This document shows positions 13,002-24,391 of a stretch of 35,618 nucleotides of DNA, in pieces (the stretch's first letter is position 1; each line of letters begins with the position of its first letter). The notes under the pieces were generated by a model. It saw only the letters and a list, made by a program, of their open reading frames with translations, was not told where the DNA came from and ran no database searches. This DNA comes from Candidatus Eisenbacteria bacterium. Lineage in GTDB: Bacteria > Orphanbacterota > Orphanbacteria > Orphanbacterales > Orphanbacteraceae. A program made the translations under genes and the position numbers. The DNA is taken from assembly GCA_016930695.1 (NCBI GenBank), contig JAFGGD010000019.1:1-35618 (forward strand), in the 5' to 3' direction.

Positions 13002-14582
13002 ATGCTCGACCGTCCCGCCCGCCTCTTCCTTTTCCTTACGCTCCTCTTCGTTTTCTCCGTCCCCTCTCCCGCGCAGCAAACGGGGACCGGTACCCTAGCC
13101 GGAACGGTCAAAGACGCGGAGACTGGAGAGCCGGTGGAATGGGCGGATGTCGTTATTCTTGAGACGAACAAGGGGGGGATCGTCCAGCAGAATGGAAGGT
13201 TCGAGGTCAAATACATCCCGCCGGGCACATACCATGTAAAGGTCTGGATGAACGGCTACAATCCGCTCATTGAGAAGAGTGTCGAGATAAGTCCGAACGA
13301 TACGACCACGGTCCATTTCCTCTTGCATGAGATCGGGTATATCCCTCCTGTAAAACAAGAGGAGTTGAGGAAGCTCCAGGAGGAACGAGCGGCGAAAGCC
13401 AAAGCGCGGCGGATCGACGAGGATCGGGAGCCCCTCGCACGCGCCGCGGCGGACTCCGCGAACTCCTTCGCCTGGGATCTCTATGGGATTCTCGCCGAAA
13501 CGGAAGGGAACCTCTTCTTCTCCCCCTTCAGCGTGAGCATGGCGCTCGCCATGACCTACGCCGGCGCGGCGGGGGAGACGAAGGAGGAGATGGCACGAAC
13601 GCTCCACTTTTCAGGCGACGACGAGCATCTTCACACAGGTTGGATGGAGATCCGCGAGAGCCTGATCCGGGGGAGTGGGGAGGGAGTCTACGAACTCAGC
13701 ATAGCGAATCGTCTCTTCGGAGAGAGTGAACACCGGTTCCGGAAGCGGTTTTTATCGATCACGGAAGAGGAATACGGCGCTTCCCTGGAAGAGGTCGATT
13801 TCCGCACCGATACGGAAGGAGCCCGCCTGACGATCAATCGTTGGGTGGAAGAGGAAACCCGGAATCGGATCCGCGACCTGATTCCCCCCGGGGGGGTAAA
13901 TACCCTAACACGCCTGGTGCTCGCGAACGCGATCTATTTCAAGGGGCTCTGGGTGGACGCCTTCAAGAAAGACAAAACCCGGGATGAGCCGTTTTATCTT
14001 CTCTCCGGCGACACCCTCTCCGTTCCGATGATGGTGGACAAAAGGGATTGTCTGTTCAGTAAATATGAAGAGGACGGTCTTCGCGTCCTCGCGATGCCCT
14101 ATCAACCGGGGCAGATTTCCCTGGTGATTCTCCTCCCCGACCGGATCGACGGCCTCGCCGATCTGGAGAAGAAACTGACCGCCGAGCGGATCGATGGATG
14201 GATCGAGGGCGCAAAGAATACGGAAGTCGCCGTCCTGATCCCCCCGTTCCGGATCGAAGATCGTTTTAATCTGTCCGACGCGCTTTTTCATCTCGGGATG
14301 AAGACCGCCTTTTCCGACGTGCGGGCCGATTTCTCCGAAATGGCCGAGGAGGAGGAGATACCGCTCTTCCTATCCGAGGTGTTCCACAAGAGCTTCGTCG
14401 AGGTGAATGAAGAGGGGACCGAGGCGGCCGCGGCTACGGCGGTCGTCATGGAAACCCTTGGATTATCTACCCATTTTCCCCCCGAATTCCGTGCCGACCA
14501 CCCCTTCCTTTTCCTCATCCGCGACAAGGTCACCGGCGCGATCCTCTTTCTCGGACGGGTGGTCGATCCCACCGCGGGTTGA
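13002..14582 (+). CDS. secreted serpin with N-terminal carboxypeptidase-regulatory-like domain
   Basis: A 526-residue exported serine/cysteine protease inhibitor. Signal peptide about 1-25 (FLFLTLLFVFSVPSPAQQ). Residues about 27-107 form a CarboxypepD_reg-like beta domain (GTLAGTVKDAETGEPVEWADV, YIPPGTYHVKVWMNGY). A charged helical linker (about 115-145) leads to the serpin domain (about 150-526): NLFFSPFSVSMALAMTYAGA, LVLANAIYFKGLW, and the C-terminal DHPFLFLIRD. The reactive-loop hinge is EEGTEAAAAT (470-479), with small residues from P15 to P9, the pattern of inhibitory serpins. The P1 residue cannot be fixed, since the loop is a few residues longer than in alpha-1-antitrypsin; Leu486 and Met483 are candidates, suggesting a chymotrypsin- or elastase-like target. 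Its start has an excellent ribosome site. No protease gene is adjacent. Confidence 0.93.
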   Translation: MLDRPARLFLFLTLLFVFSVPSPAQQTGTGTLAGTVKDAETGEPVEWADVVILETNKGGIVQQNGRFEVKYIPPGTYHVKVWMNGYNPLIEKSVEISPNDTTTVHFLLHEIGYIPPVKQEELRKLQEERAAKAKARRIDEDREPLARAAADSANSFAWDLYGILAETEGNLFFSPFSVSMALAMTYAGAAGETKEEMARTLHFSGDDEHLHTGWMEIRESLIRGSGEGVYELSIANRLFGESEHRFRKRFLSITEEEYGASLEEVDFRTDTEGARLTINRWVEEETRNRIRDLIPPGGVNTLTRLVLANAIYFKGLWVDAFKKDKTRDEPFYLLSGDTLSVPMMVDKRDCLFSKYEEDGLRVLAMPYQPGQISLVILLPDRIDGLADLEKKLTAERIDGWIEGAKNTEVAVLIPPFRIEDRFNLSDALFHLGMKTAFSDVRADFSEMAEEEEIPLFLSEVFHKSFVEVNEEGTEAAAATAVVMETLGLSTHFPPEFRADHPFLFLIRDKVTGAILFLGRVVDPTAG

Positions 14583-15156: not shown

Positions 15157-17064
15157 TCAGTCGTAGAGGAATCCCCGCGCGTGGCGCACCTCGGACCTTT
15201 CCGGATTCGCGTAGCGCCAGTAGTGGAGGAACTCGCGGTAGGCGAGACCGGCCCGATCCTTCTCCCCCTGCTCCTCGAGAGTGCGCCCCAGGTAATAAAA
15301 AGTAAGAGGGAGCACAGGAGGGAGGTCGAGGAAGGACTCTCCGCGATCCGCCAGATGCTCCAACTCCCGAAGGGCGGGTCCCCATCGTTTGGCGAGCCAG
15401 GAAGCGCGCCCCAGGAGGTGCCGCGTCCAGGGACGGTCCTTCTCGTGGAGCGCGCGGCGGAGCGGCGGAATCGCCTCCCAACCGGATCCGCCGAAGAGGA
15501 GATGCACCCCGTCGAGAAGGTCCGGCAGATCCGGATCGGCGCCCGGTTCGCTCTCCAGCTCCAGCTTCTTGGCCGCCACCGCCCCCAGATCGCCCCGGTA
15601 GGCGCCGAAAAGTCCCTCCAGCCACGCCACCTTTCCCGGACGCGATCCCGCGCCCGCGAGTCCGTCCCCCCGGAAGCGCAGCTCCGCGAGTTCCGTCGCC
15701 GCCGCGTCCCACTCCCCCGCCTCCAGATAGACGAAGATGAGCCTCTCCGTCAGGTCGATCAGGCTTTCCTCGTCACGGAGGCCGTACGCCTCGTCGCGCG
15801 CCTGCACCAGATCCCCCGCCGCCTCGTGAAAACGGCCCTGGGCGAAGAGGAAGTCGGCGCGCGCCGCCCGGTGGACGAAATAGGGCCGCGTCCCCTCCGG
15901 TCCGTGCGGGTTCGGTGGTGGTGGTAGCGAGAGGATGTCCCCCGTCTCCTCGAGAAGGCCCTCCGAATAGTAGAGCGACGCGATCCCGATCCGCGCGAGA
16001 TGGTCCCGCGGCGAGAGACCGAGGGCGCGGCGGTATTCGTCCCGGGCGAGGTCGAGGAATCCGTCGCGCAGCGCCGCGTCGCCCAGAAGCCGGTGCGGCA
16101 TCGGGTCGAGAGGGCGCTTCTCCACCGCCTTCGCGAGGAGGCGGCGCCCCTCTTCCGACTCCCCGCGGTCCAGGCGGTCCAGCGCATCCAGAAGGAGCGT
16201 GTCGAAACGGTTGGGATACTCCTCGACGAGGCGGGCGAGAGCGAGGCGCGCCTCCTCGTCGGAGCCGCGCACCCGCGCCAAACGGACGCGGTGCACGAGC
16301 CTCTCCCTCGTGGTGAGATCGGCAGGCCGGACTCGGTCGAGGAAAGCGGCGCCTCTCTCCCGGCTTTCCCGCAGGAAGAGGCGGAAACCGAGTTCCGAAA
16401 GGGCCGGGGAGTGGAAGGAATCGAGGGCCGCCGATTCCGAGAGAAGGTTGATCGATCCGAAGATGAGACCGGAGGCGTATTGCTCTTCCGCGTCGGCGCG
16501 AAAGACGCGCGGGGGAGAGGAGGGTGGTTCTCCTCCCAGCCGCCGAACGGCGGAGTCGGCCAGCGCCGCCGCCGCGGCGCCGGTCGAGCCGGTGGGCGCC
16601 GCCGGGAGCCGGACGATCCAGTTCTCGTCGAAAGGGGAACGGGTGCCGAGCACCCGGATCTCCCGCTCTTCCCCCTCCCACGGCAGGTGGAGGTGAAGGA
16701 TCAGGTCGAGGCCGAACTCGCGCGCCTCGCTCCGGACATAGGCGAGGGCGTGGCCGGAGAGGGGCGCGCCCCCCGCTTCCTCGAGAAGGGCGGCCAGGTT
16801 TTCCTCCGCCGCGTCCGGCACGGCGGCGGGAAGAAGGGGGAGGCCGCTCTCCTCCAGCCTTCTCGCGAACTGTGTCCGAATCCCGTTCGGATGGGGAGTG
16901 GAGGGAGGGGCCGAGAGGAGGAGAACGTAGCGGGAAGGTTCCTCGGCCGCGGCCGCGCCGGAGAGAAGCGCCGCGAGCGCCGCCGCCGCGGCGAGAAAGG
17001 CTCGCCATCGCCTACCCCCGCAGGAGCCGCGCCACCCCGGTTTTTCTTCTCTTTTCCTTCCCAT
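15157..17064 (-). CDS. secreted TPR-repeat protein of unknown function
   Basis: A 635-residue exported protein. The N terminus is positively charged followed by a long Ala/Leu stretch (FLAAAAALAALLSGAAAAEE), a signal peptide with cleavage near residue 40. Residues about 45-160 hold a beta/alpha segment (YVLLLSAPPSTPHPNGI, LDLILHLHLPW) that I cannot name. From about 190 on there are helical TPR-like repeats (LARLVEEYPNRFDTLLLDALDRL, ARDEYRRALGLSPRDHLARIGIASLYYSEG), ending with EFLHYWRYANPE, like the tails of TPR kinases in this lineage. AAAGAGGA precedes the ATG. Probably a periplasmic scaffold; no partner is evident. It stands alone between the small-RNA candidate and the divergent permease operon. 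Confidence 0.8.
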   Translation of the reverse strand: MGRKREEKPGWRGSCGGRRWRAFLAAAAALAALLSGAAAAEEPSRYVLLLSAPPSTPHPNGIRTQFARRLEESGLPLLPAAVPDAAEENLAALLEEAGGAPLSGHALAYVRSEAREFGLDLILHLHLPWEGEEREIRVLGTRSPFDENWIVRLPAAPTGSTGAAAAALADSAVRRLGGEPPSSPPRVFRADAEEQYASGLIFGSINLLSESAALDSFHSPALSELGFRLFLRESRERGAAFLDRVRPADLTTRERLVHRVRLARVRGSDEEARLALARLVEEYPNRFDTLLLDALDRLDRGESEEGRRLLAKAVEKRPLDPMPHRLLGDAALRDGFLDLARDEYRRALGLSPRDHLARIGIASLYYSEGLLEETGDILSLPPPPNPHGPEGTRPYFVHRAARADFLFAQGRFHEAAGDLVQARDEAYGLRDEESLIDLTERLIFVYLEAGEWDAAATELAELRFRGDGLAGAGSRPGKVAWLEGLFGAYRGDLGAVAAKKLELESEPGADPDLPDLLDGVHLLFGGSGWEAIPPLRRALHEKDRPWTRHLLGRASWLAKRWGPALRELEHLADRGESFLDLPPVLPLTFYYLGRTLEEQGEKDRAGLAYREFLHYWRYANPERSEVRHARGFLYD

Positions 17065-17255: not shown

Positions 17256-19427
17256 ATGACGTTACTCATCGGGTTCTTTCGCGATTTCGTTCTCGAGACG
17301 GTACGCATGCTCTATGAGAGCGGCCTCTTCCTTCTCTTCGGCTTTTTCGTCGCCGGATTGCTCCACTCCTATCTGAGCACGGAGCGGATCGTGACCTATC
17401 TCGGGAAGCGGGGCTTCCGGTCGATGGTGAACGCCGCCATCCTGGGCGCGCCTCTCCCTCTCTGCTCCTGCGGCGTGCTCCCGGCGGCCGTGGAGCTCCG
17501 GAAAAAAGGGGCGAGCCGCGAGTCGGTCCTCTCCTTCCTCATCACGACGCCGGAGACGAGCTTCGAATCGATCGTCCTCTCCTATGGTCTTCTCGGCCCG
17601 GTCTACGCCGTCGCGCGCCCCATCGTGGCGATCGTCACCGCCCTGGTGGCGGGCGCGGCGCACATGATCTTCGGTGAAGACGGAGACGCGGACCCGCTGC
17701 AAGGGAGAGGCGCGAAGGAAACGGAGCCGGCGCCCACCTGCGCCGCCGAAGTGAACGAGCTGGACGAGCTCAAGATCGAGGAATACCGAGCCGACAGCCG
17801 GTACGGCCGTTTCCGCGCCGCGTCCCATTACGCATTCAGCTATCTTTTCGACGAGCTTCTCTTCTGGTTCATGCTCGGTATCGTGCTGACCGGTCTTCTC
17901 GGCGCGCTCCTCCCCCCCGAGTTCTTCGGCCGCTATCTGGGGAGCGGGGTTTTCTCCATCCTCGTGGCGGTGGCGGTCGGGATCCCGCTCTACATGTGCG
18001 CTTCCGGCTCCACGCCCATCGCGGCGGCGTTCCTCGCCAAGGGGTTGAATCCCGGCGCGGTGCTCGCCTTCCTCCTCACGGGTCCGGTGACCAACGCGGT
18101 GAGCATCTCGGTGTTGGGGAAGGTTTTCGGACGTCGTTTCCTGAAGATCCTGATCGCCTCGATCATGGCCGTTTCCATCGTCGCGGGCCTTCTCTTCAAC
18201 CGCGTCTACACCTGGAGCGCCAGCCACGTGCCGGGTACGTCGGGCAGCTCCACCGGTTTCCTGCTGAGCGCCGCCAAGGGGATCGGCCTGGTGGTCTTTC
18301 TCTACCTCGCCTACCGCAGCTTCCGCCGCACCGGCGTCCGGCACGGCTGGTGCGAGCTGAAAGACAACATGCGAAGCATTCTCGGTCCGATCCGGCGTTT
18401 CCGCCCGCGCCACCTTTACGGCACCACCGCCGGGCGGGTCGCCCTCGCGGCGGCGGCGGCCGTCTATCTGCTCACCGGCTTTTACACCGTCCGGCCGGGC
18501 GAGGTGGGGATGGAGAGAGTCTTCGGTGTCATTCGCGCGACGGACCGCGCGCCCGGTCTCCACTGGTGCCCGCCGCGTCCCTTCGGGCGGTCCGCCCGGT
18601 GCAGCGTGGACGGGGTGGTCCGGCTCGACATCGGGTTCCGATCCGAGGAGCGCGTGTGCGATCCCCTCGATTTTTATTGCACGATCTGCTCCGAGCCTGG
18701 ACGCGCGGTAAACCGGATCTTCGAGGAGGCGCTCTTCCTGACCGGCGACGAGAACATCGTGGACGTGATCTCCACGGTCCACTATCGGGTGTCGGACCCG
18801 ATCCGGTACACGTTCGGCGTCGAGGCGGCGGAGCAGCTGATCCGCGACGTGGCGCTCTGGTCGATCCTGCGGGAGACCGCGGCCTGGGAGATCGACCGGA
18901 TCATCACCGATTCCCGCTACGAAATCGAGCGGAGGGTCGAGGAGAGGGCGAACGCCGTTCTGGACGAGGGGCTTTCCGGACTGCGGATCGAGGAGATCCG
19001 CCTCCAGGCGACCCACGCGCCGCGGGAAGTGCATTACGATTTTCGGGACGTGGCGAGCGCCCAGGAGGACCGGGCGCGGATGATCCACGAGGCGTACGTG
19101 TATTGGGAAGGGGCCGTGAACGGCGCGCGGGGCCAGGCGGCCCGGATCGTCGCCGACGCCGAGGCGGCCCATTCGGAGCGCGTCGCCTCGGCGCGAGGGG
19201 CGGCGGCGAAGTTCCTCGCCCTCCAGGAGGCGTCCGCCGAGGAGCCCGGAAGCATCCGGCTTCGTCTCTACCTGGAAACGATGGAGAGAATTTTGCCGGG
19301 ATGCCGGACCGTGATCCGGCCCGACCCCGGCGCCGTGGACGACTTCGAAATCTGGTTCCGGTCGGGGAAGGGAAACGTCCTGCCGGACCTCTTCGGGGCG
19401 AAGAGGGAGGGGACCGATGAGCGATAG
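17256..19427 (+). CDS. SO_0444/ArsP-type permease fused to an HflK-like SPFH domain
   Basis: A 723-residue fusion. Residues about 1-385 are a polytopic permease of the DUF318/SO_0444 Cu/Zn-efflux kind: APLPLCSCGVLP (Cys70, Cys72), GIPLYMCASGSTPIAAAFLAKG (Cys248) and AFLLTGPVTNA, duplicated in two halves with a hydrophilic loop between. A further TM helix (about 394-411) opens an SPFH/band-7 module (about 412-640) of HflK type: FYTVRPGEVGMERVFG, GLHWCPPRPFG, LTGDENIVDVISTVHYRVSDPIRY. A helical tail follows. The SPFH part has five cysteines (438, 449, 468, 475, 478) absent from the sibling HflK-like protein. The stop overlaps the next start by 11 bases. Metal export in a membrane microdomain is inferred from the two parts; the combined activity is not known to me. 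Confidence 0.88.
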   Translation: MTLLIGFFRDFVLETVRMLYESGLFLLFGFFVAGLLHSYLSTERIVTYLGKRGFRSMVNAAILGAPLPLCSCGVLPAAVELRKKGASRESVLSFLITTPETSFESIVLSYGLLGPVYAVARPIVAIVTALVAGAAHMIFGEDGDADPLQGRGAKETEPAPTCAAEVNELDELKIEEYRADSRYGRFRAASHYAFSYLFDELLFWFMLGIVLTGLLGALLPPEFFGRYLGSGVFSILVAVAVGIPLYMCASGSTPIAAAFLAKGLNPGAVLAFLLTGPVTNAVSISVLGKVFGRRFLKILIASIMAVSIVAGLLFNRVYTWSASHVPGTSGSSTGFLLSAAKGIGLVVFLYLAYRSFRRTGVRHGWCELKDNMRSILGPIRRFRPRHLYGTTAGRVALAAAAAVYLLTGFYTVRPGEVGMERVFGVIRATDRAPGLHWCPPRPFGRSARCSVDGVVRLDIGFRSEERVCDPLDFYCTICSEPGRAVNRIFEEALFLTGDENIVDVISTVHYRVSDPIRYTFGVEAAEQLIRDVALWSILRETAAWEIDRIITDSRYEIERRVEERANAVLDEGLSGLRIEEIRLQATHAPREVHYDFRDVASAQEDRARMIHEAYVYWEGAVNGARGQAARIVADAEAAHSERVASARGAAAKFLALQEASAEEPGSIRLRLYLETMERILPGCRTVIRPDPGAVDDFEIWFRSGKGNVLPDLFGAKREGTDER

Positions 19428-20316
19428 ACGAAAGTGGGCGCTCGGCGCGGTCGGTGTGATCGCCGCCGTGTACCTGTTGTCCTCCTTTTACGTGGTGGAC
19501 GTGACCGAATACGTTGTGGTGACCCTCTTCGGGAATCCGGTGGCGGTTCACACCGAGCCGGGGCTGCATTTCGATTTGCGCAAACCGATCGAGTCGATCA
19601 ACCGGATCGACGCGCGCCTGCTCACCCTCGACCTGCCTCCCACCGAATACCACACCGAGGACAAGATCAACGTGGTGGCGAGCGGTTACACGCTTTGGCG
19701 CGTCGAGGACCCGCTTCTCTATCTGCGGCGCGTGTACAACCGTCGCGGCGCGGAGACGCGGATCACCGACATTCTCTCTTCCGAGATCGGTTCCGCCGTC
19801 GGCCGGACGCCGATGGCGGCGCTGGTGTCGACCGACTCGACCCGCATGCGGCTCGACGAGGTAGTCGGTTCGATCCTGGAGAAGGGCGGGGAGAGGATCG
19901 TTCGCGACTACGGGATTCGGATCGAGGACTTTCGCGTCAAGCGGCTCGCCTTCCCGGAGCAGAACAAGGAATCGGTTTTCCAGCGGATGCGGACCGAGCG
20001 GCACCGGATCGCCAAACGTTTCCGGTCCGAGGGCGAGGAACAGGCGCTCCGCATCCGGGCGGACGCGGACAAGCAGAAGTCGGAGATTCTCGCCGAGGCG
20101 CGGCGGCAGGCCGACGAGATCCGCGGCGGAGGAGAGGCGGAGGCGACCCGGATCATGGCGGAGGCGATTCGCCTGGATCCCGATTTCTACACTTTCCTGC
20201 GCACCCTGGAAAGCTACGAGAAGATCGTGAGCGACAAGACCACGCTGGTGATCTCGGGCGACTCGGATTTGATGCGGCTTTTGACCACCGGCCGGACGTC
20301 GGGAGGAGGTCGCTAG
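19417..20316 (+). CDS. HflC-like SPFH domain protein
   Basis: A 299-residue inner-membrane protein with one N-terminal helix (LGAVGVIAAVYLLSSFYVV) and an SPFH/band-7 domain of the HflC kind (TEYVVVTLFGNPVAVHTEPGLHF, the RRGAETRITDILSSEIG helix region, and the tail RSEGEEQALRIRADADKQKSEILAEARRQADEIRG). The tail is a long charged coiled coil as in HflC/prohibitins. In E. coli, HflC and HflK form a cage around FtsH protease; here no ftsH is visible and the partner is a permease fusion, so the role may be assembly of a transporter microdomain. The ATG overlaps the fusion gene's stop; the stop lies one base before the next gene's ATG. Confidence 0.9.
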   Translation: MSDRRKWALGAVGVIAAVYLLSSFYVVDVTEYVVVTLFGNPVAVHTEPGLHFDLRKPIESINRIDARLLTLDLPPTEYHTEDKINVVASGYTLWRVEDPLLYLRRVYNRRGAETRITDILSSEIGSAVGRTPMAALVSTDSTRMRLDEVVGSILEKGGERIVRDYGIRIEDFRVKRLAFPEQNKESVFQRMRTERHRIAKRFRSEGEEQALRIRADADKQKSEILAEARRQADEIRGGGEAEATRIMAEAIRLDPDFYTFLRTLESYEKIVSDKTTLVISGDSDLMRLLTTGRTSGGGR

Positions 20317-20317
20317 A

Positions 20318-21229
20318 ATGATGAAACGGCCCCCCGCCGCCCGAATCGTCCTCGCCGCGATCGCCCTTCTCTATCTCGGCTCGGGCCTCTTCATCGTCCA
20401 GCAGGACGAGGAGGCGGTGGTGCTCCTTTTCGGGAAACCGTGGAAGACGCGGGTTCCTTCGGGAATCCACTGGGCGCCCCCCTGGCCCGTCGGCAAACGG
20501 GTCGTGGTCCGCACCACCACGTCCTATCAGATGAGCGTCGGCTTCAAGATCGCGGACTCGGTGCGCGGCCTCCCCCCCGCCCAGGCGGAGACGGAGTTTC
20601 TTACCGGCGACACGAACATCCTTGACCTGGAAATGATCCTTCAGTACGTGATCGACGATCCCTATACCTTTGCCTTCGGCGTGGAGGATCCCCACTTCCT
20701 GGTCCGGCGCGCCGCGGAGGCGGTCGCGACACGCATTCTTGCCCAAAAGCCGGTGGACGAAGTGCTCACTTCGGAAAGGCAGGCTTTTCTCGAAGCGGTC
20801 CGCCTGGGGACGCAGGAGAAACTGCGCGCCTACGGAGCCGGCATCGCCGTGGTCTCCGCCACGCTCAAAAGGATCGAAGCTCCCGGCGAGGTGATCGAGG
20901 CGTTTCAGGACGTGCAGAACGCCAAGGCGGACCGGGAAAGGGCGATCAACGAGGCGAACGGCTACGCCAGCGAGAGCCTCCCGCGCGCGCGCGGCGAGGC
21001 GGAGGCGCTTCTCCAGGGGGCCGAGGGGGACCGGAACGCCCGGGTCGCCTGGGCGCGCGGCAACGCCGAGAGGATCCGCGTGATGACCGCCGAGTATCTG
21101 CGGGCGCCGCAGATCACCAAGGAGCGTATGTATCTGGAAACCGTCGACAAGGTGCTGCGGTCCGTTTCCGTCTATGTGATCGACTCCGAGGAGGGGCGCG
21201 AGCCGGTGGGCGTCAAGCTGTTCGACTGA
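20318..21229 (+). CDS. HflK-like SPFH domain protein
   Basis: A 303-residue membrane protein with one N-terminal helix (RIVLAAIALLYLGSGLFIV) and a complete HflK-type SPFH domain: QQDEEAVVLLFGKPW, GIHWAPPWPVGKR, LTGDTNILDLEMILQYVIDDPYTFAFGVEDP, then VIEAFQDVQNAKADRERAINEANGYASESLPRARGEAEAL, the conserved HflK tail. It aligns closely in motif order with the SPFH part of the fusion gene, so the operon encodes two HflK-type and one HflC-type subunit. It contains no cysteine in the region where the fusion has five. GGAGGAGG in the previous gene's end provides the ribosome site; a second ATG follows at once. Confidence 0.9.
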   Translation: MMKRPPAARIVLAAIALLYLGSGLFIVQQDEEAVVLLFGKPWKTRVPSGIHWAPPWPVGKRVVVRTTTSYQMSVGFKIADSVRGLPPAQAETEFLTGDTNILDLEMILQYVIDDPYTFAFGVEDPHFLVRRAAEAVATRILAQKPVDEVLTSERQAFLEAVRLGTQEKLRAYGAGIAVVSATLKRIEAPGEVIEAFQDVQNAKADRERAINEANGYASESLPRARGEAEALLQGAEGDRNARVAWARGNAERIRVMTAEYLRAPQITKERMYLETVDKVLRSVSVYVIDSEEGREPVGVKLFD

Positions 21230-21268: not shown

Positions 21269-22270
21269 CTATCCGCTCGACGCGAGGAAATGGAAGAGCG
21301 GGTCCATCAGGTTTTCCACTTCCCGCTCCGGATTCTTCGGATTGAAAAGAGTGAAGGGATCGCGCCAGGCCGCCGGGTTCAGGATCGACGGTCCCCGGCG
21401 GAAAGCCTCGATGGTGATCGCCCGGGTTCCGTACACCTCGTACAGGTAGTCCATCTCCGTCCCACGCGCGCGGAAGAGGGGGAACCAGCGGCCGAGTTGC
21501 TTCGCCCGGAAACCGCAGCGCGGCTGCAGGTCGATCATCGCCCGGACCGTGTCCCGAAACCACGAGTCGTGCCGGCAGCTCTCCCGTTTCGCGGCGTAGG
21601 GCCAGAAGAAACGGCCGCCGAAGGAGTGGAAGGAAGCGGCGAAATCGAAACGGTGCTCCAAGAGGAGGGACCGGTAGGCGGCGGTTTCCGGCTCGCTGAA
21701 GGGCCGCGGACCGGGGTTGTAGAGGAAACGGAGCGCGCCGAAGATCGGAGCGCGGCGGGAGAAGAAGGCGCTGAAGTTGCGGTTCAGGTCGACGCCGTTC
21801 CGGTTGAAGCGCCGGAAGCGGGAGCGGCCGGCCGCCAGGTCTTTTTCCACGCGCCGGTAACCGTCCGGGTTCAGGATCGGAAGGAAGACCACCTCGCGGT
21901 TCTGCAGGGTGGGATTCAGTTTCATGTTGGCCGCGAACCGTTCCATCAGAGTGAGTGTGATCTCGGCACCGATGAACTCGAGCGGGTGGAGCAGCGAGGT
22001 GATCAGAAAACGAACCGGCGGCTCCGTCTCCTCTCTCGTGTTGTCCACGCGGAACGCCCAGATCGCCTCGCCGCCGGCGCTCTTGCCGATGGAGACCGGC
22101 TCCAGCCGCTGCGGGTAGCGCTTGAGGATGCGATCGATCTGGATGAAGACCTCGCGATAGGTTTTGTAGGCGCCGTACTTCTCCGCATCGAAGGAGATCT
22201 GGTATTCTCCCTCTTTCAGGAGACGGTCGTAGAAGACGCGCCAGTTTCGTCTCGACGTCGGTTTCGCCAT
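21269..22270 (-). CDS. M14 family zinc carboxypeptidase
   Basis: A 333-residue metallopeptidase of the M14 (carboxypeptidase A) superfamily that removes C-terminal residues or cleaves small peptide/amide substrates. Zinc ligands His95 and Glu98 lie in LLHPLEFIGAE; the third ligand is in FAASFHSFGG; substrate-binding NRNGVDLNRNF and the catalytic Glu in AITIEAFRRG are present, so it should be active. No signal peptide is seen from the ATG at 22,270 (AGGATGG upstream), suggesting a cytoplasmic enzyme, which is less common for M14. An in-frame upstream extension to 22,348 lacks a ribosome site. It converges on the SPFH operon and is divergent from the sigma-factor unit. Confidence 0.87.
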   Translation of the reverse strand: MAKPTSRRNWRVFYDRLLKEGEYQISFDAEKYGAYKTYREVFIQIDRILKRYPQRLEPVSIGKSAGGEAIWAFRVDNTREETEPPVRFLITSLLHPLEFIGAEITLTLMERFAANMKLNPTLQNREVVFLPILNPDGYRRVEKDLAAGRSRFRRFNRNGVDLNRNFSAFFSRRAPIFGALRFLYNPGPRPFSEPETAAYRSLLLEHRFDFAASFHSFGGRFFWPYAAKRESCRHDSWFRDTVRAMIDLQPRCGFRAKQLGRWFPLFRARGTEMDYLYEVYGTRAITIEAFRRGPSILNPAAWRDPFTLFNPKNPEREVENLMDPLFHFLASSG

Positions 22271-22362
22271 GTTTCCATCCTGCCCTCTCCGGAGAATACG
22301 GGATGGAATGGGCGGGTGTAAAGTGCGAAGGCGCAACTCCTTGCGCATTCGGTTTTCGGACG

Positions 22363-22391: not shown

Positions 22392-22469
22392 GATTGAATA
22401 AAAGCCGCCCTCGGCGGTAGGCCCTTCAGAGGCGGGGGAAACGGAAAACCCCGCCATTTGGACTTTCAC

Positions 22470-23045
22470 ATGGACCGAATGGAAGAGCGGGATTGGATCG
22501 TGAGATGCCAAAGCGGCGATCGCGAGGCGTTCGGACCGATCGTGGAAGCCTACCGGCGGCGGGCCTTTTTCACCGCCCTCGCGTTGGTCGGTAACCGCGA
22601 GGAGGCCTACGATCTCTCGCAGGAAGCCTTCGTACGGGCTTTTCACGCCATCGCCCGTTTCGATCCTACCCGGGATTTCGCGCCCTGGTTTTTCCGCATT
22701 CTGCGCAACCTCTGCGCTTCCGCCCACGCGAAACGGAAAACGCGCCGGGAGGATTCGCTGGAGGAGATGCGCGCGGAAGGCCGGGACATACCGGCCGGCG
22801 ACCGATTCTCGCCGGAACTGCTCGCCGAGCGGAACGAGGCGGCGGAGCGGATCTGGAGGGGGCTCGCGGAACTCGACGCCAAGCACCGGGAGGTGGTGGT
22901 GCTCAAGGATCTCCAGGATCACAGCTATAAGGAGATCGCCGAGATCCTGGATATTCCGATCGGAACGGTCATGTCCCGGCTCTTCCATGCTCGGCAGAGT
23001 TTGAAGGAAAAGTTGCTCGGGGAGGAGGCCCGTCGTGCGGTGTGA
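22470..23045 (+). CDS. ECF-type RNA polymerase sigma factor
   Basis: A 191-residue sigma-70 family protein with only regions 2 and 4. Region 2 is at about 20-85 (FGPIVEAYRRRAFFTALALVGNREEAYDLSQEAFVRAF, FAPWFFRILRNLC) and region 4 at about 125-180 (LDAKHREVVVLKDLQDHSYKEIAEILDIPIGTVMSRLFHARQSL). It directs polymerase to a small regulon. The start is uncertain: ATG at 22,470 is chosen, TTG at 22,458 and ATG at 22,479 are alternatives, and none has a strong ribosome site. The next gene, an anti-sigma factor, overlaps it by 11 bases, so the two proteins are made together. Confidence 0.9.
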   Translation: MDRMEERDWIVRCQSGDREAFGPIVEAYRRRAFFTALALVGNREEAYDLSQEAFVRAFHAIARFDPTRDFAPWFFRILRNLCASAHAKRKTRREDSLEEMRAEGRDIPAGDRFSPELLAERNEAAERIWRGLAELDAKHREVVVLKDLQDHSYKEIAEILDIPIGTVMSRLFHARQSLKEKLLGEEARRAV

Positions 23046-23481
23046 GGATTTCCCGCTGCTTTCCATGGCCTATCTGGACGGAGAGATGTCCCCGGAGGAT
23101 CGTCTCGAGTTCGAAAAGCACCTGGAAGAGTGCGGTGTCTGCCGGACGGAACTCGAGAAACTCCGCCGGGTGAAGGAGGTGACGGCGAGAATGAGGCTGG
23201 CCGATTTGGAGGAACGAGACTGGGAGGCGTACTGGACGGGGGTCTATAATCGTCTGGAGCGCGGCGCCGGTTGGATCTTCTTCTCCGCCGGGGCGATCGT
23301 GGTTCTCGCGTTCGCCGCCTGTTCTCTGCTGCGCGACTTCTTTTTTAGTCCGGAAGAGCCGCTCCTCCTGCGCTGCGGCGTCGGATTCCTGGTTCTCGGC
23401 CTGCTGATTCTTCTCGTGTCGGTGGGTCGCCAACGGCTCCACGCCTGGAAGCGGGATCCGTACCGGAGGGTGAAAACATGA
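23035..23481 (+). CDS. zinc-finger (ZAS/zf-HC2) anti-sigma factor with two TM helices
   Basis: A 148-residue membrane protein that should bind and hold the ECF sigma factor encoded just upstream. The N terminus has the zinc-binding anti-sigma signature Cys3, His29, Cys33 and Cys36 (FEKHLEECGVCRTEL). Two hydrophobic helices follow, about 82-101 (WIFFSAGAIVVLAFAACSLL) and about 111-130 (LLRCGVGFLVLGLLILLVSV), so the zinc domain is cytoplasmic with a short loop outside. The GTG start at 23,035 is preceded by GGAGGAGG. The stop overlaps the next ATG (ATGA). No large extracytoplasmic sensor domain is present, so the signal must reach it through the membrane or a partner. Confidence 0.88.
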   Translation: MRCEDFPLLSMAYLDGEMSPEDRLEFEKHLEECGVCRTELEKLRRVKEVTARMRLADLEERDWEAYWTGVYNRLERGAGWIFFSAGAIVVLAFAACSLLRDFFFSPEEPLLLRCGVGFLVLGLLILLVSVGRQRLHAWKRDPYRRVKT

Positions 23482-23801
23482 TGGTCAGCACCTTGGAGAG
23501 CGCGCCCGGATACGAGATCGTCGAGGTTCTCGGACTCGTTCGGGGGAGCACGGTCCGGGCGCGGCACTTGGGGCACGACGTCCTCGCCAAGCTGCGAAAT
23601 CTGGTGGGCGGCGAGGTGCACGACTACACAAAGATGCTCGCCGAGGCGCGGGAACAGGCGTTGGACCGGATGACCGCCGAGTCGAAACGGCTCGGCGCCG
23701 ACGCGGTGTTGCAGATGCGCTTCATGACCTCGTCGGTCATGCAGGGGGCGGCGGAGATCGTCGCCTACGGCACGGCGGTCCGTCTTCGCAAGATCGACTG
23801 A
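23478..23801 (+). CDS. YbjQ/DUF74 family protein
   Basis: A 107-residue protein of the YbjQ (DUF74) family, a small homopentameric fold of unknown biochemical role often called a putative heavy-metal-binding protein. The family signature is clear: YEIVEVLGLVRGSTVRARHLGHDVLAKLRNLVGGEVHDYTKMLAEAREQALDRM and ADAVLQMRFMTSSVMQGAAEIVAYGTAV. Its start overlaps the anti-sigma gene's stop by 4 bases, so it belongs to the sigma-factor operon. Two ATGs stand side by side (23,478 and 23,481). Confidence 0.9.
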   Translation: MMVSTLESAPGYEIVEVLGLVRGSTVRARHLGHDVLAKLRNLVGGEVHDYTKMLAEAREQALDRMTAESKRLGADAVLQMRFMTSSVMQGAAEIVAYGTAVRLRKID

Positions 23802-23845
23802 GACAACCCCTCCGTCCCGTCCGGGGCGGTTCACTCGGAGGAAAC

Positions 23846-24391
23846 ATGAAAGGCGCGCTTCTTCTTCTCGGAACGCTCGCTGCGCTGCTGCCCGGCGCGG
23901 CGCTTGCCGTGCTCACCGTCGATCTCGGAGATCCGACCACGCACGAGTGGACGGTGACCTACCGCTTCGAGGCGAGCGGCGTCGGTAAAACCTCCATGGA
24001 CGTGCTCCCCTACGATTACGACGAAATGGAGATCCTGGACACCGCGCCGGAGAAGGGAGGGGGACAGCTCAAATACGAGGCGATCAACGAAGGGGAGGCG
24101 AAGAAGCCCAAGTTCCGAATCCTGCTCCCCAATCCTCTCGGCCCCAACGAGCGGATGAAATTTCGCGTGGTGGCGCGCATGAAGGATCCGGAGGCGTATT
24201 TTCTGGACGTGGCCAAACTCAACTTTCTCTATTCGACAGGACACGAGATCAACGTGACGCTTCCCGAGGGATACCTGCCGATCTACACCAACGAGGCGAT
24301 GGAGCTGAAGTGGGAGAAGAACCGCGTGGTGCTCTCCAGCGCCGGGGGAGTACTCCGGCCCGTCGTGATCTTCGGAAGAAGCTGCGACTAG
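23846..24391 (+). CDS. small secreted protein of unknown function
   Basis: A 181-residue exported protein not recognised as any family. Signal peptide about 1-21 (LLLLGTLAALLPGAALA). The mature part is beta-rich and acidic (TVTYRFEASGVGKTSMDVLPYDYDEMEILD, FRILLPNPLGPNERMKFRVVARMKD, INVTLPEGYLPIYTNEAMELKW), suggesting an immunoglobulin-like or DUF-type beta sandwich. There is one cysteine near the end (GRSCD). CGGAGGAAAC gives a good ribosome site. It follows the YbjQ gene by 44 bases on the same strand and could be the envelope target or sensor of the sigma/anti-sigma pair; that is inference from position only. Confidence 0.7.
   Translation: MKGALLLLGTLAALLPGAALAVLTVDLGDPTTHEWTVTYRFEASGVGKTSMDVLPYDYDEMEILDTAPEKGGGQLKYEAINEGEAKKPKFRILLPNPLGPNERMKFRVVARMKDPEAYFLDVAKLNFLYSTGHEINVTLPEGYLPIYTNEAMELKWEKNRVVLSSAGGVLRPVVIFGRSCD

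Follow-up and report, generated by a model that had tools for sequence, protein, structure and literature searches.

Composition of the operon

The window, i.e., the whole stretch of 35,618 nucleotides that was analysed, carries on its forward strand a three-gene operon in which a permease fused to an SPFH module is followed by an HflC-like and an HflK-like protein, hereafter HflC' and HflK'. The features of the operon, together with a neighbouring gene, are as follows.

15157–17064, reverse strand: gene of a divergent TPR protein, a neighbour kept in the family and at most a candidate member of the system
17256–19427, forward strand: fusion gene (F), 723 aa, SO_0444/ArsP_1 permease, transmembrane (TM) helix and HflK-type SPFH module
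17256–18314, forward strand: permease half, aa 1–353 (NF033936, PF03773)
17463–17474, forward strand: CSCG motif, aa 70–73; CSC in 19/19 aligned fusions (CSCG or CSCS)
17676–17825, forward strand: middle loop, about aa 141–190, variable, Cys- or His-rich in many relatives
17997–18008, forward strand: second Cys motif CASG, aa 248–251 (CASS or CASA in relatives); Cys in 19/19 aligned fusions
18315–18491, forward strand: basic linker (aa 354–393) and TM helix (about aa 394–412) before the SPFH module, from hydropathy
18486–19325, forward strand: SPFH module and C-terminal helical part, aa 411–690 (Band_7, HflK alignment, Foldseek)
19417–20316, forward strand: HflC', 299 aa, operon-specific HflC paralogue (TIGR01932; outside the canonical HflC clade)
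20318–21229, forward strand: HflK', 303 aa, operon-specific HflK paralogue (TIGR01933; outside the canonical HflK clade)

The listing of open reading frames gives the fusion gene as a single frame of 723 amino acids with no internal stops, in which Pfam recognised ArsP_1 (PF03773) at residues 15–315 (E 1.9e-45) and Band_7 at residues 411–612 (3.6e-8). The permease half exceeded the equivalog cut-off of the NCBIfam SO_0444 Cu/Zn efflux transporter model NF033936 over aa 16–353 (325 bits, cut-off 300) and stayed below that of the SaoE efflux transporter model NF040736 (150.1 versus 325 bits). Like the SO_0444 family (NF033936; PF03773), it contains CSCG, and Cu/Zn export is its putative function; unlike that family, the window protein has a C-terminal TM–SPFH extension and belongs to a three-gene operon. 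The linker sequence is kept in the alignment of the window family.

The fused SPFH module fell narrowly short of the cut-off of the NCBIfam hflK model TIGR01933 (154.6 bits, cut-off 159.4). HflC', whose gene overlaps the fusion gene by 11 bases, passed the cut-off of the hflC model TIGR01932 (179.5 bits, cut-off 134.4), and HflK', encoded after a gap of one base, passed that of TIGR01933 (202.8 bits, cut-off 159.4). All three SPFH proteins align across the segment of E. coli HflK/C that builds the cage; the fused one aligns with HflK residues 139–347, a stretch in which the roof helices known from the published structure are contained. The AlphaFold2 single-chain model of the fusion was weak (mean pLDDT 54, alignment of 13 sequences). 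In Foldseek searches, the top PDB match of its SPFH half was HflK (9cz2/7vhq/7wi3), and no convincing match among solved PDB structures was found for its permease half. The initial annotation had described a continuous 723-codon frame joining a CSCG permease to an SPFH module, followed by overlapping or abutting genes of HflC and HflK type, and this description was confirmed in each element.

A Cys cluster at about C469–C479 in an insert of the window SPFH module was considered as a conserved feature and dropped, as it is not kept in relatives. No shared regulatory motif was seen upstream of the fusion gene, and no plasmid record covers 80% of the fusion.

Other genes of the window were also characterised. 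The gene at 13002–14579 (forward strand) encodes an apparently secreted protein, in which a complete serpin (E 2e-115) comes after a carboxypeptidase-regulatory-like domain; no match to it was found in the corresponding region of relatives. An M14 zinc carboxypeptidase gene at 21269–22348 (reverse strand) is convergent to the operon and is located near it in the related genomes G002, G003, and G004 as well. Genes for an ECF sigma factor, a zf-HC2 anti-sigma-like protein, a YbjQ family protein, and a 181-aa protein without known family (22458–24388, forward strand) are partly kept downstream in relatives.

Distribution of exporter–SPFH fusions

Within the phylum of the window genome, seven genomes, all of one family, were available, and five of them contain the fusion together with HflC' and HflK'. 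The identities to the window proteins are 50–53% for the fusions, 64–67% for HflC', and 59–62% for HflK'. In G003, the fusion gene is split by a contig break and its remainder is located on another contig. In G001–G004, HflK' is followed by a fourth gene, that of a ZIP zinc transporter (PF02535), which was not found in the window genome, so that ZIP is optional. In a scan of contigs with the fusion as a query, only L022, a contig of G003, proved to be a fusion, the other matches being unfused permeases; unfused permease relatives in other collections (L023–L033) are about 300–380 aa long.

A wider search covered 386 genomes spread over the domain. Full-length permease–SPFH fusions were detected in eight families outside the window phylum, nearly all of them followed by HflC' and HflK'. 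The initial annotation had named separate permease and SPFH genes in close relatives as a sign of an assembly fusion; since the full-length fusion recurs as one gene in four relatives (one of them contig-broken) and in other phyla, it is not a product of assembly.

The same search revealed SPFH proteins with another N-terminal part, identified by Pfam as Cation_efflux (CDF); such CDF–SPFH fusions were found under 10 family codes and in one genome of the phylum of Desulfuromonas BM103, where one of 62 strong SPFH matches is a CDF fusion. A search with HflC' as a query yielded further CDF–SPFH loci and a third exporter type, a 1040-aa fusion of a P-type ATPase (PF00122 and PF00702, with a CPC motif) to SPFH, behind which HflC' and HflK' are likewise encoded. 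Such P1B-type ATPase–SPFH fusions are present in five genomes of one small phylum (the first and four more). In Acidobacteriota, all 15 SPFH matches at E<=1e-92 among the 386 genomes lie in frames of 930–1092 aa; eight of these loci were read, and each of them joins a P-type ATPase to SPFH, which Pfam confirmed for four.

A six-frame tally gave 48 distinct fusion loci, comprising 20 with permease, 15 with CDF, and 13 with ATPase heads (L109 duplicates L039). Of the 46 loci uncut by contig ends, 45 have HflC' as the gene after the fusion (with a gap of about 400 bases in L117), and HflK' is then present in 44 of 45, which answers the question of neighbour conservation raised in the initial annotation. 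The sole true exception is L060 (G370 C10), a second permease–SPFH copy with neither HflC' nor HflK' adjoining. Among the SPFH matches listed in one search, frames longer than 550 aa were exporter fusions except in G031, a GC-rich genome with a long open frame. Two further long frames come from the phylum of Desulfuromonas BM103: L126 (885 aa) had only Band_7 by Pfam and was left out of the fusion count, and L127 showed no fusion on reading. In four permease-type families (f1, f67, f118, and f112), ZIP genes are adjacent to the fusion locus or within a few genes of it. Overall, the initial reading stood as regards composition, covalent fusion, and conserved HflC/HflK neighbours; it had missed the CDF and ATPase exporter types and the ZIP partner.

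The surroundings of some of these operons have features of their own. The permease-type operons in L061, L062, and L063 (G370, G091, and G104) come after an additional gene of HflC type and one for a member of the acetamidase/formamidase family, the FmdA_AmdA Pfam match having been obtained for L061 and L062. The CDF-type operon of L088 (3240–11169) is flanked by Mrp/NUBPL-type and Fe–S ATPases, a dinitrogenase iron–molybdenum cofactor family protein, and a radical SAM protein, and genes resembling this flank occur in L082, L086, and L073; a link of such CDF operons to iron or another metal is possible. Directly upstream of the acidobacterial ATPase–SPFH fusions in L121 (4647–5399) and L122 (4403–5155), a 251-aa probable membrane protein (MDTVWVLVSAAVGIGFVHTLIGIDH...) is encoded, which had no Pfam match.

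Relation to the canonical HflK–HflC pair

A canonical hflK–hflC pair is located at another locus in the window genome (G000) and in G002, G003, and G004, and G006, from which the fusion is absent, also has a separate pair. The identity between this pair and the operon copies is only 30–36%. A single FtsH is encoded in every genome of the phylum that carries the fusion; its gene is unlinked to the operon, being on a different contig or far off. Because of the separate canonical pair and the unlinked ftsH, the arrangement of the cage "around FtsH", on which the initial annotation had drawn, is not implied.

To place the operon proteins, trees were built in which the canonical set was a sample of unfused hflK–hflC pairs; L078, a very divergent SPFH protein, was kept out of both clade descriptions. 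Canonical HflC formed one clade (support 97/99), as did canonical HflK (SH-aLRT 99), and no operon members fell into them: HflC', HflK', and the fused SPFH modules are all outside both clades. The fused modules and the stand-alone HflK' form different groups, and the same genome sub-groups return among F, C', and K'. Because of this recurrence and of the separation of the fused SPFH from HflK', we read the trees as pointing to an ancient three-subunit operon, the exporter head of which would have been swapped. The CDF types fall into two or three groups, and the trees fix neither where the root lies nor how many such swaps there were.

Compared with the HflK–HflC/FtsH system of E. coli (7vhp, 7wi3, and 9cz2), HflC' and HflK' likewise pass the family cut-offs, HflK-like and HflC-like subunits likewise share an operon, and the fused SPFH aligns with HflK. 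Unlike the E. coli system, the window operon has three SPFH genes, one of them fused to an exporter, in the order F–C'–K' instead of K–C, and it is not beside ftsH. Among the prokaryotic SPFH subfamilies 1–12 (PMC2636767), the operon proteins belong near SPFH3 (HflK/C); in a term search, that survey never mentioned transporter, permease, or cation. No description of an exporter–SPFH fusion was found in the open-access literature, in agreement with the initial annotation, which knew of no system with this composition.

A proposed exporter within an SPFH dome

Several sequence signs point to metals. Both CSC and the second Cys motif occur without exception in the 19 permease fusions that were aligned; their middle loop varies, being CxxC-like in some, HDHDHDH-like in others, and poor in both in a few. 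Nearly all CDF halves have an HxxxD-type motif in TM5; the corresponding TM2 pattern was matched in six, and several CDF halves have both. The ATPase fusions contain CPC, and some HflC' proteins have His-rich N-termini. The ZIP genes beside the operons of four families are a further sign. Judging by the exporter families, the substrate would be a divalent metal, most likely Zn(II) or Cu/Cd.

The three exporter families have little in common except the removal of metal from the cytoplasm. Since one and the same cage subunit is attached to these unrelated families, with two more subunits nearly always following, SPFH domes appear to be tied to metal export. The C-termini of CDF proteins (6 TM) and P1B-ATPases (8 TM) are cytoplasmic; HflK has its N-terminus in the cytoplasm, from which the chain crosses to the periplasm. 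Because these two exporter types end where HflK starts, the SPFH module would be placed over the exit side. We consider it probable that the operon encodes a metal exporter that forms a covalent part of its own HflK/C-like SPFH dome, located over the exit side in the periplasm.

The chamber formed by canonical HflK and HflC is a 24-mer of alternating subunits (PMC12048511), and AQP1 and UT-B are enclosed by a dome of stomatin (PMC12407830). By analogy with both, the fused protein F would join C' and K' in a ring of alternating HflC' and HflK-type subunits, standing in for HflK at some places; one or several exporters would then lie in the patch of membrane by the ring wall, with the SPFH dome covering the periplasmic side. 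A divalent metal would be moved from the cytoplasm into the space beneath the dome, which would keep the exporters in one microdomain and may retain or pass on the ion, sparing the periplasm a flood; the ZIP carrier encoded beside many such operons could return the metal. Such an assembly would in the first place be not an FtsH adaptor but a version, fixed by the gene, of the stomatin–aquaporin-1 arrangement. With the latter (PMC12407830), the window operon would share an SPFH oligomer with a resident transporter as cargo, as judged from its genes; the stomatin dome is non-covalent, eukaryotic, on the cytoplasmic side, and concerned with water and urea, whereas the window system is covalent, bacterial, of the HflK/C type, and presumably periplasmic and concerned with metals. 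We infer cage assembly, stoichiometry, the inside position, the substrate, and the benefit of enclosure; the fused exporter could also be positioned outside the ring.

Alternatively, the SPFH modules could be a quality-control handle, with HflC', HflK', and the fused module recruiting FtsH and setting exporter turnover under metal scarcity. FtsH is bound by canonical HflK/C, which directs its proteolysis of membrane proteins (PMC12048511), the P-type ATPase MgtA has been named as an FtsH substrate (PMC13220708), and there is one FtsH in each fusion-bearing genome of the phylum. Nevertheless, we regard this explanation as rather unlikely, given the unlinked ftsH, the own canonical pair of the window genome and G002–G004, and the position of the operon paralogues outside the canonical clades; moreover, covalent fusion of the exporter would be a strange substrate mark.

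It is quite improbable that the SPFH modules merely multimerise and cluster the exporter in a lipid microdomain, a closed chamber being irrelevant. SPFH proteins are known as general scaffolds, and, because the CDF halves extend only to about residue 200 and gave no match to ZT_dimer, SPFH may stand in for the usual CDF dimer domain. However, three distinct SPFH paralogues occur together at nearly every locus, and the alignment of all three with the cage-forming part of HflK/C exceeds the needs of simple clustering. That the fusion is an artefact of assembly or annotation, or arose by chance in a single lineage, can practically be dismissed, since nothing in its favour was found (the gene in G003 is split at a contig end) and conservation over about 48 distinct loci in many families, some on contigs of several megabases, already refutes it.

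Beyond the probable dome-bound exporter of the window, it may tentatively be suggested, as a possibility somewhat short of probable, that these are widespread bacterial machines in which exporters from three unrelated families form a covalent part of an SPFH chamber in the periplasm. The ion would be released not into the open periplasm but into a protein-walled compartment for the vectorial transfer or storage of transition metals, of which no counterpart is known. The role and cargo of most bacterial SPFH proteins are a long-standing open issue; exporter fusions write the cargo into the gene, so that cargo, stoichiometry, and the benefit of enclosure become testable. An SPFH dome with resident membrane cargo is a known kind of structure, of which the exporter operons may be a bacterial counterpart to stomatin-enclosed channels and possibly an extra layer of metal homeostasis; a walled metal compartment, if true, would be a new category.
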